Shown here in pieces: positions 37,187-43,018 of a stretch of 64,000 bases of DNA. A program made the translations under genes and the position numbers. The notes beneath the pieces are model-generated. The model saw only the letters and a program-made list of their open reading frames with translations, searched no databases and had not been told where the DNA came from. The stretch comes from Candidatus Phycosocius bacilliformis (GTDB lineage: Bacteria > Pseudomonadota > Alphaproteobacteria > Caulobacterales > Aquidulcibacteraceae), in contig NZ_BFBR01000002.1 of the NCBI RefSeq assembly GCF_003112735.1, forward strand, positions 124,001 through 188,000, written 5' to 3'. Within the stretch, counting starts at the first letter, position 1; each line of letters opens with the position of its first letter.

Positions 37187-37253
37187 AAAAAAGTTTCACC
37201 GAGGCAGTCCATAACCCGAAGCGCATTCGCCATTCCCCACGCAAAGGCGGATC

Positions 37254-37669
37254 GTCAGACGGTCTATAAGCCGGGTTTTGTCCAAGGGGGTGAACCCTCT
37301 GGGCGACCATTCATCTGGGACCCTGTTCGCACAGGGCCTCGTGCGACCTACCCGGACACGCCAACCCGCAAACCGGCCGTAACCGGGCAAGCCCGGCTAC
37401 ATGGTGTCCCTATTCGGTCTTGCTCCTGGTGGGGCTTGCCGTGCCTCCTTCCTTACGGTCCGAGCGGTGGGCTCTTACCCCACCGTTTCACCCTTACCCG
37501 TCTGATCGAAACCATTGGGGCGGTCTATTCTCTGTGGCGCTATCCCTAAGACCCGGCCTGACGACCCGATCCCGGCGGGCCTTACCCGCCACCATGCTTG
37601 CGTGGAGCCCGGACTTTCCTCCCTTGCGCCCTTTCAGGCCGTGCAAGAGCGGCCGCCTGACCGTCTGAC
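37254..37669 (-). ncRNA. rnpB: RNase P RNA (bacterial class A)
   Basis: The catalytic RNA that trims tRNA 5' leaders. Read on the minus strand, the 5' end GTCAGACGGTC pairs perfectly with the 3' GACCGTCTGAC (helix P1). Conserved region GAGGAAAGTCCGGGCTCC lies ~50 nt from the 5' end, and the 3' part has the ...GGCTTATAGACC block typical of alphaproteobacterial rnpB. The GGGTAAGGCCCGCC and GGGTAAGAGCCCACCG segments and the reverse of the CCTCCTTCCTTACGG region fit the specificity domain. About 416 nt, normal size. Exact ends are inferred from P1 pairing. Confidence 0.95.
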
Positions 37670-41615: not shown

Positions 41616-41642
41616 CAAAAGCCTACTGCAGACGTGACTGGA

Positions 41643-41659
41643 CGTGTGATTTTCGCACG
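41643..41659. promoter_or_regulatory. Operator-like palindrome 1 upstream of the Xre-RibB gene
   Basis: CGTGTGATTTTCGCACG: arms CGTGTGA and TCGCACG match at 6 of 7 positions around TTT. It shares 13 of 17 bases with the palindrome centred exactly 40 bp downstream. Between the two lies an AT-rich stretch (TATAGCCATATCTAAAGAAT) suitable for a -10 element. A plausible binding site for the DNA-binding domain encoded by the gene itself; this is inference. Confidence 0.5.
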
Positions 41660-41682
41660 ATATAGCCATATCTAAAGAATAA

Positions 41683-41699
41683 CGTGCGAATTTTGCGCG
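41683..41699. promoter_or_regulatory. Operator-like palindrome 2 upstream of the Xre-RibB gene
   Basis: CGTGCGAATTTTGCGCG, extended outward by AA/TT to AACGTGC...GCGCGTT (6 of 7 pairs). It lies 17 bases before the ATG and just ahead of the GGAG ribosome site, so a bound protein could block both transcription and the leader. Confidence 0.5.
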
Positions 41700-41716
41700 T
41701 TACTGGAGATGGGCTG

Positions 41717-43018
41717 ATGGATGTCGTCTGGTTTCGCAATCGCATGAAGGAAGTGGGGGCAACCCAAGAAGACATTGGTGCGGCGATTGGCCGAGACCGC
41801 TCTGCTGCAAGTCGGCTCTTGTCAGGGGCGCTTGAATTCAAGGCGGCCCATGCCGCGCCTCTAGCCCAGGTTTTGCAAACAACAACAACTGAAATTCTGA
41901 TGCGTGCAGGTGTGGCCCTTGATGTGGCAAGCCCTGCGCGAGCTGGTTTGCCCCATGCCCGGGTAGAGGCTGCCATTGAGGCGTTTGCCGCTGGTGAAAT
42001 CATCGTTGTGACTGACGATGATGATCGGGAGAATGAAGGTGATCTGATCATGGCTGCCAGTTTGTGTACGCCGGAAAAGATGGCCTTTATTGTCCGCCAC
42101 ACCTCGGGCATTGTCTGTGCGCCGCTGACCCGCGAGATAGCCCGCAAACTGCGCCTCGATCCGATGGTCGCTAATAATGATGCACCGTTATCGACCGCCT
42201 TCACCGTCTCAGTTGACGTGCGCCACGGCACCACAACCGGCATTTCGGCCGAGGATCGCACCAATACGTGCCGTGCTTTGGCCAATCCAAACATTGGTGC
42301 GGCAGATTTTGTTCGTCCCGGCCATATATTTCCGCTGATTGCGCGCGATGGCGGGGTCTTGGTCCGCACCGGCCACACCGAAGCCACTGTCGATCTGTGC
42401 CGAATGGCAGGCCTGCCCGAAGTGGGTGTCATTTGTGAGATGATGAATGATGATGGCACCGTGATGCGTGGACCCCAAGTCGCGGCTTTTGCAGCGACCC
42501 ATAACCTCAAACATGTCTCAATTGCCGAGATGATTGCCTATCGCCAATCGCGCGAGAAACTGGTGGAGCGCGTGTCGAGCTTTGTGGTGGAGACAGACGA
42601 TGGGCCTGTTCAAGGTTATGCCTATGCAACACCATTTGATCCGGTCCATCATTTGGCCTTTGTGGTTGGCAAGATTGGGGCAGGCGACCATGTGCCCACG
42701 CGTTTGCACCGAGCCGATGTGGTCAAAGATGTTTTTGGCGGCGCCCCTGCAATCAAGGCTGCCATGGCAGCGTTTCGTGAAGAAGGCCGGGGGGTCTTGG
42801 TCTATCTGCGCGATGGCACGGTCGGGGTACCCTTCCAAAGCCATGGCGAAACCGAATCCGAAACCCGTCGCCTACAAACATGGCGTGAAGTCGGCGTCGG
42901 CGCTCAAATTCTGCGCGATCTCGGCGTGCATTCCATCAAGCTCTTGACCCGGACAACGCACAAATTTGCGGGCTTACGTGGCTTTGGGATCGAGATTGCC
43001 GAAGTCGACAGCCGCTAG
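41717..43018 (+). CDS. ribB: Xre/Cro-type DNA-binding domain fused to 3,4-dihydroxy-2-butanone-4-phosphate synthase and a degenerate GTP cyclohydrolase II-like domain
   Basis: 433 residues in three parts. Residues ~5-68 form a Cro/C1-like helix-turn-helix: WFRNRMKEVGATQEDIGAAI then GRDRSAASRLLSG. Residues ~82-285 are RibB, making the four-carbon precursor of riboflavin from ribulose-5-phosphate: TDDDDRENEGDL, RHTSGIVCAPLT, HGTTTGISAEDRTNT, RTGHTEATVDL. From ~295 the chain follows the GTP cyclohydrolase II fold but lacks the zinc cysteines (the expected C-x10-C-x-C region reads TRLHRADVVKDVFGG), so GCHII activity is unlikely, as in RibBX proteins of other Alphaproteobacteria. ATG at 41717 has GGAG 9 bases ahead and keeps the DNA-binding domain. 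The fusion suggests an enzyme that also regulates, possibly its own promoter. Confidence 0.93.
   Translation: MDVVWFRNRMKEVGATQEDIGAAIGRDRSAASRLLSGALEFKAAHAAPLAQVLQTTTTEILMRAGVALDVASPARAGLPHARVEAAIEAFAAGEIIVVTDDDDRENEGDLIMAASLCTPEKMAFIVRHTSGIVCAPLTREIARKLRLDPMVANNDAPLSTAFTVSVDVRHGTTTGISAEDRTNTCRALANPNIGAADFVRPGHIFPLIARDGGVLVRTGHTEATVDLCRMAGLPEVGVICEMMNDDGTVMRGPQVAAFAATHNLKHVSIAEMIAYRQSREKLVERVSSFVVETDDGPVQGYAYATPFDPVHHLAFVVGKIGAGDHVPTRLHRADVVKDVFGGAPAIKAAMAAFREEGRGVLVYLRDGTVGVPFQSHGETESETRRLQTWREVGVGAQILRDLGVHSIKLLTRTTHKFAGLRGFGIEIAEVDSR

Follow-up and report, generated by a model that had tools for sequence, protein, structure and literature searches.

A RibBX riboflavin enzyme with an N-terminal Cro/C1-like helix-turn-helix and operator-like palindromes in its promoter: a putative self-repressing enzyme of Alphaproteobacteria

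Accounts of how bacteria control their riboflavin supply usually centre on the FMN riboswitch. One gene in the window (the whole stretch of 64,000 nucleotides of Candidatus Phycosocius bacilliformis DNA analysed here) raises the question whether a riboflavin enzyme can act as its own regulator. According to the original prediction, the RibB encoded by this gene carries a DNA-binding domain and represses its own gene through two palindromes in the promoter. Based on comparative evidence, we consider it quite likely that the protein, here called HTH-RibBX, represses its own gene, with both DNA binding and repression being inferred.

As proposed, a single reading frame of 433 codons joins a helix-turn-helix (HTH), RibB and a GTP-cyclohydrolase-II (GCHII)-like tail without cysteines (Table 1). 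ATG 41717 is the start common to close relatives in sequence comparison. The earlier start of the mechanically called open reading frame, GTG 41684, is disfavoured by this shared start and by the position of the GGAG.

Table 1 Features of the HTH-RibBX locus. Positions refer to the window; a dot marks features without strand.
Feature	Position	Strand	Details and basis
HTH-RibB-RibX gene	41717..43018	+	433 aa; ORF translation and Pfam
GGAG, Shine-Dalgarno-like	41705..41708	+	8 nt upstream of ATG; sequence
Lambda-CI-like HTH domain	41723..41908	+	residues 3-64, predicted recognition helix 28-36; Pfam, PDB profile, AlphaFold, Foldseek
Flexible linker	41909..41950	+	residues 65-78; AlphaFold, residues 69-77 with pLDDT <50
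DHBP synthase (RibB) domain	41966..42541	+	residues 84-275; PF00926 8e-85, motifs, Foldseek
RibX domain (GCHII-like, cysteine-free)	42569..43003	+	residues 285-429; PF00925 1.9e-27, alignments to 6mnz and 2bz0
Operator-like palindrome 1, CGTGTG-ATTTT-CGCACG	41643..41659 (centre 41651)	.	starts at -74 from ATG; sequence and genus conservation, no binding data
Operator-like palindrome 2, CGTGCG-AATTT-TGCGCG	41683..41699 (centre 41691)	.	starts at -34 from ATG; sequence and genus conservation, no binding data
Possible core promoter, TGGACG (41639-41644), 16 bp, TATAGC (41661-41666)	41639..41666	+	by eye, genus conservation

Residues 1-83 alone matched the Pfam profiles HTH_31 (E = 2.9e-5) and HTH_3 (E = 0.0044), both under the curated score cut-offs. 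In an alignment of the HTH from eight members, which has 16 invariant residues, all eight sequences matched HTH_31 and HTH_3 at E ≤ 0.1 (best values 1.1e-6 and 3.1e-6), and comparison of the HTH profile with the PDB revealed lambda CI (1lmb; 6e-4) as the nearest structure by sequence. AlphaFold predicted five helices (residues 3-13, 17-23, 28-36, 43-52 and 57-63/64) with a pLDDT of about 85-95, and the same helices were obtained for the HTH modelled alone as in the full-length model. The whole-protein model comprises the HTH, a disordered linker, RibB and RibX, with a mean pLDDT of 83. A Foldseek search with the HTH returned HigA, a lambda repressor-operator complex and P22 c2 among the top matches (probability ~1, best E 9e-3). 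The N-terminal domain, which had been claimed to be of the Cro/C1 type, is an Xre/Cro-C1 HTH by sequence and by its predicted five-helix fold.

The RibB motifs DxDRENEGD, PGH and RxGHTEA are invariant or at least 90% conserved in 48 sequences; based on these motifs and Pfam, the DHBP synthase domain looks intact, although catalysis is inferred only. The top Foldseek matches of the whole model were RibBA of M. tuberculosis (4i14) and RibBX of A. baumannii (6mnz). Residues 285-433 contain no cysteine, and none of the cysteine positions of E. coli RibA (2bz0) is occupied by cysteine in the aligned tail. The criterion for a bifunctional RibBA, a zinc-binding GCHII site, is therefore not met by this cysteine-free domain. 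Tails without zinc cysteines were also found in 14 fused and 30 plain relatives (of the 32 plain sequences considered, L015 and L042 were left out of this inspection). Because such a tail is the already-known RibX domain, the window protein is, as judged from its sequence, an HTH-RibBX. The RibBX proteins of Shewanella oneidensis, Acinetobacter baumannii (6mnz, which the window protein matches in predicted fold), Aeromonas salmonicida and Bradyrhizobium resemble it in pairing RibB with a GCHII-like domain devoid of GCHII activity. The RibX domain of RibBX is described as lacking this activity and, for S. oneidensis, as a regulator of RibB (PMC10012899). In the accessible part of that paper no DNA-binding domain is mentioned for RibBX, whereas the window protein adds an HTH and matching sites.

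The two palindromes upstream of the gene are, as described originally, identical at 13 of 17 positions with centres 40 bp apart. As bare single-sequence dyads, they are no better than chance. The best dyad within 100 bp upstream of the gene pairs 6/8 positions, which 30% of shuffles equal, and the pattern YGTGYGN5YGCRCR has two matches in the whole window, both within 57 bp, a number reached by 21/100 shuffles. The palindromes stand above chance because they are conserved between genomes. Palindrome 1 would fill the spacer of the possible promoter recognised by eye (TGGACG-N16-TATAGC), and in the related loci L013 and L014 the dyad, again by eye, covers a possible -10 box (TATACG); a consensus scan for a sigma-70 promoter in the window yielded no site.

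The absence of an FMN riboswitch, stated at the outset for this locus, holds for the window and, among the candidates scored (78 of 105), for the whole genome. None was detected in 21 of 21 fused genomes either, for most of them among 78 candidates scored. RF00050 was found in one of 28 genomes searched (many again among 78 candidates scored), namely G754, which has a ribBX without HTH; this riboswitch (G754:C1:2244937-2245095) lies 1.1 Mb from ribBX. A bacterial class A RNase P RNA is located in the window at 37251-37668 on the minus strand (278.6 bits).

The same gene is present in Aquidulcibacter paucihalophilus, Hyphomonadaceae bacterium UKL13-1, Candidatus Phycosocius spiralis and Pseudaquidulcibacter saccharophilus (12 loci in total in the named-organism search, the last one, L100, being only a partial match). 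Aquidulcibacter and Phycosocius are placed in Caulobacterales by NCBI. Among 60 genomes of the window's family, 56 contain a match to the protein: 14 include the HTH and 42 start at residue 61 or later, with the N-terminus unseen at a contig end in two of the latter (G013 and G048). No match to the window protein was found in the family search for G016, G019, G040 and G044. The HTH-bearing genomes comprise 9/9 of the window's genus (g1), 1/1 of a sister genus (g4) and 4/5 of a third genus (g7), and we refer to their HTH, that of the window, as type A.

Type-A promoters share the consensus TGTGYG-N5-CGCACA, which was drawn from the 14 scored upstream regions, the window's own included. Sites start at -74 and -34 in 9/9 genomes of g1, the second of these having four mismatches to the consensus in the window and one to two in the other g1 genomes. 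The g4 genome (L010) carries a pair at -96/-56, so that two sites 40 bp apart are found in 10/10 genomes of g1 and g4. The four g7 genomes, whose proteins are 57-58% identical to that of the window, have a single site (TGTGCGCTATACGCACA, TGTGCATATTGTGCACA or AGTGCATATTATGCACA) starting at -31 or -19. Genes that keep the fusion thus keep the sites, as phylogenetic footprinting was expected to reveal if the palindromes mattered: at most two mismatches to the consensus were found in 13/14 type-A upstreams, compared to 0/66 HTH-less upstreams, 0/45 upstreams with the type-B HTH introduced below and 1.1% of shuffles. With up to three mismatches, the counts were 14/14, 5/66 and 0/45, with 9.9% of shuffles. 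One type-A upstream, L014, also contains a type-B-like site at two mismatches. As both the type-A and the type-B consensus were drawn from the promoters scored, HTH-less genes and shuffles serve as controls, and the HTH-less control is loose because its 100-bp stretches precede estimated starts, many of them within operons.

In the window's genome, a degenerate type-A motif has 17 matches in total, 15 of them elsewhere, compared to 35 for a control pattern. Single-target specificity is not shown for type A because this looser motif occurs at 17 places. One strong type-A-like site, TGTGTGAAAATCGCACA (G000:C3:214577-214593; L068:2078-2094), is flanked by two divergently oriented genes, one encoding an MFS_2 transporter and the other an Epimerase-family protein, and is a possible second target.

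The genomic surroundings differ between fused and plain genes. In plain relatives such as G028, G051, G034 and G045, ribH adjoins ribBX, whereas it is not beside ribBX in 14/14 fused genomes. In the window's genome, a run of genes for SHMT, NrdR, RibD_C, riboflavin synthase and DMRL synthase (L067) lacks ribBX. The only PF00925 match of this genome is the cysteine-free RibX tail. Across the family, the PF00925 matches, among those listed, lie mostly at RibBX genes; the others are proteins of ~430 aa matching over positions 38-165 only, which we take to be URC1-like, and one strong match in G025. DMRL synthase is encoded in 57/60 family genomes. Riboflavin synthesis in this family apparently does without any GTP cyclohydrolase II that can be recognised as such, with the tails inspected in part. 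Furthermore, ribD genes of three genomes (L067:6727-7434, L069:2777-3460 and L070:3754-4416) encode 220-235 aa with the RibD_C reductase only and no deaminase domain, which is a second gap in the riboflavin pathway. In L071 (G019, of g7) there is no RibB or PF00925 match, ribH is kept, and ribD and ribE were not seen between nrdR and ribH. A further genus, g14, encodes a stand-alone conserved protein of 111 aa that resembles the window's HTH (L072:4850-5185 and L073:4944-5279, both on the minus strand) and matches window residues 2-91 in seven genomes.

A class-wide search of 385 genomes with the fused alignment identified RibBX of other orders as nearest to the window's protein, and reading of N-termini revealed HTHs in G661, G439, G584 and G466. 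In the order of G466, HTH-RibBX is present in at least 54 of 297 genomes from 8 families among the matches listed. This count includes listed matches down to about 1.6e-154 whose start lies at or before model position 9; nine of the 54 N-termini are unread. A second RibBX match beside HTH-RibBX is listed for G439 and G661, and several genomes of family f195 have a count of two. By sequence comparison, the fusion is widespread rather than a local oddity, and other lineages carry other putative operators. Most of the HTHs read in these genomes conform to MKLDxWL...TRSAFARRxGLSPAxITALCND (type B), while G1012 has an HTH akin to that of the window (type C) and G806 yet another one. In blastp, type A is similar to the type-C HTH of L149 (26-35% identity over 38-54 residues) and has no type-B hit, and a profile comparison of type A with type B gave a probability of 39% over 29 columns. 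Upstream of L149, the single type-C gene, no clear dyad was found.

For type B, we analysed 45 promoters, from 43 of the 52 remaining genomes of G466's order and two of family f47. The consensus TTTCAGTnnnnCTGAAA was matched with at most two mismatches in 38/45 of them, in 0/66 HTH-less upstreams and in 0.09% of shuffles; allowing three mismatches raised this to 39/45, 0/66 and 1.5%, respectively. The seven upstreams with more than two mismatches are four of family f198 as well as L121 (four mismatches, with ATTTAGTTGTGCTAAAT present), L154 (three mismatches) and L122 (four mismatches and no clear site). A second, non-overlapping site with up to four mismatches, usually weaker than the first, was detected in 26/45 promoters, at a distance of 27-29 bp in 16 of them and of 38-40 bp in 10, while 2/66 HTH-less upstreams contain any type-B site at this threshold. 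The exact TTTCAGTnnnnCTGAAA occurs in 13 of 16 type-B genomes searched, in each case only once in the 4.5-7.5 Mb of the genome and always before ribBX; it is absent from the other 3/16, and the reversed control pattern had no match in the 16 genomes. Since these genomes were chosen with their fused-gene promoters known, the promoter match is in part a result of this choice, but the absence elsewhere is not. With the exact operator-like sequence nowhere else in the genome, the presumed repressor looks dedicated in type-B lineages, although binding data are lacking.

Promoter geometry could be followed in the same set. The pattern TTGN3-N16-18-TAN3T is found in 19/45 type-B upstreams, 18 of them with the TTG at -34 to -36 from the ATG, as against 4.4% of shuffles at any position and 7/66 HTH-less upstreams. 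The proximal type-B site, at about -41 to -24, covers the TTG of this -35 box. We infer that about 7 nt separate the end of the -10 box from the ATG, an arrangement that would suit a leaderless transcript.

Changes in the HTH are accompanied by changes in the site. Family f198 has SQGR or TQGR at the position that in most others reads SPAx or SPGT (the fetched stretch ends at this motif), and all four promoters read carry the operator-like TATTAGCnnTGCTAATA with 0, 0, 0 and 2 mismatches, the best match elsewhere having five mismatches both in the 66 HTH-less and in the other 41 type-B upstreams. The f47 promoters contain the variants TTTAAGTTTGACTTAAA and TTTTAGTTTAACTTAAA. In a single genome, G806, with its unrelated-looking HTH, GTTGCCAAAATGGCAAC lies upstream with 7/8 pairs, which 3.4% of shuffles reach. 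Six HTH-less genes are nested in the fused clade (L085, L134, L139, L141, L146 and L147), and none of them has a type-B site with up to five mismatches within 300 bp (best 6-7). This comparison shows putative sites that are conserved with the HTH, absent without it and different with a different HTH.

These observations can be combined into a mechanism that remains inferred. As RibB functions as a dimer in known RibB structures, each dimer would present two HTHs and could grip one 17-bp operator of two-fold symmetry, the geometry being inferred. Two dimers may bind together at paired sites, because a second site is present in more than half of the type-B promoters and, at 40 bp, in the window. 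Since the operator either overlaps the core promoter or sits within it, the bound protein would block RNA polymerase and keep the amount of RibB fixed. The repressor may be tuned by a ligand of RibB or RibX, and ribulose-5-phosphate, a flavin or a nucleotide of the GTP pathway can be envisaged, each class being no more than a tentative candidate. The two features expected of a self-regulating enzyme, a DNA-binding domain in the enzyme polypeptide and a cognate operator in its own promoter, are met, the latter as far as comparison can tell.

Other readings have to be weighed against autorepression. The HTH might bind the sites and activate transcription, or govern a wider regulon that includes ribBX; two stand-alone Wolbachia regulators raised a ribA promoter reporter, according to the part of the source available (PMC3518464), and the TGTGTGAAAATCGCACA site between the MFS_2 and Epimerase-family genes would suit a regulon. 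However, the overlap with the -35 box in many type-B promoters and, by eye, with the -10 box or spacer in type A is the geometry of a repressor, and the exact site is confined to one place in 13 type-B genomes, which leaves this reading unlikely but still worth keeping in mind.

It is considerably more doubtful that the palindromes belong to a separate regulator, with the fused HTH left over as a relic or serving merely for dimerisation. Such a view could draw on the lack of binding data, the loss of the HTH in several lineages and the stand-alone 111-aa HTH-like protein in another genus of the family, but a relic would hardly retain 16 invariant residues in eight sequences, and a separate regulator would not readily account for sites that come, go and change with the fused HTH. 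A last possibility, that the palindromes are due to chance and the N-terminal extension of an otherwise ordinary RibBA is spurious, would fit the non-significant single-sequence dyad scores. However, the start, the HTH and the sites are conserved across many families, and the genome scan in type B and the consensus comparison also contradict this possibility, which we regard as next to impossible. Repression of ribBX by its own product remains the reading that we prefer.

Trees were inferred from RibB-RibX with the HTH left out and rooted at the midpoint. The fused sequences gather at one fork, with support of 98/97 in tree 1 (43 fused, 1 plain) and 91/87 in tree 2 (35 fused, 6 plain; near-duplicates and two long sequences left out), where at least five label changes are forced. 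L085 and L131 form long branches, and f198, f205 and f216 are outside the trees and represented by promoters only. The window's clade (13-14 sequences, support of 100/99 or better) falls inside the fused clade, in the 28-sequence set at 99/90, and is widely separated from the plain RibBX proteins of the order to which it belongs. Therefore, the window's gene was probably acquired by transfer and took the place of the operon copy, which is an inference. Taken as a whole, we lean moderately towards a scenario in which HTH-RibBX represents a class of vitamin enzymes, widespread in Alphaproteobacteria, that are self-repressing and single-target. In this scenario the class had roughly a single origin and disappeared on several occasions along with its operator, while divergence or swap of the HTH with a matching site reset the DNA specificity three times or more. 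It was also transferred horizontally as a self-regulated module, replacing the operon-borne ribBX in the Aquidulcibacter lineage.

BirA, NadR and PutA are enzymes that bind their own operators. They differ from HTH-RibBX in fold and pathway, and their effectors are known. Repressors of the lambda CI, P22 c2 and HigA type have dyad operators in multiple copies and the HTH fold in common with HTH-RibBX, the rest of which is, in contrast, a vitamin enzyme. The Wolbachia regulators wBmxR1 and wBmxR2 are of the Xre type. As is inferred for HTH-RibBX, they are transcription factors at an alphaproteobacterial riboflavin promoter (ribA), but as far as the accessible text goes they are stand-alone, activate and use an AT-rich site (PMC3518464). 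No description of an HTH-RibB fusion was found in open-access titles and abstracts among the matches listed, and word searches in the available parts of two reviews on riboflavin (PMC13028884, PMC7693651) gave no passage on it. The closest precedent is RbkR, an archaeal protein of another domain of life that controls several genes and, as in HTH-RibBX, fuses a riboflavin-pathway enzyme, although a different one, to an HTH. This riboflavin kinase with an N-terminal HTH (Rodionova et al. 2017) is called 'bifunctional as gene regulator and enzyme' in the part of PMC8305020 at hand, and the idea that a riboflavin enzyme with a DNA-binding domain would be a new member of the self-repressing type is thereby anticipated.

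In HTH-RibBX, enzyme and regulator would be the same protein, and a single gene with about 60 bp of DNA would make up the entire circuit, which makes it testable by simple assays. Members of the family may also provide a natural set of HTHs paired with their sites, along with joint losses, in which the co-change of repressor and site can be studied.
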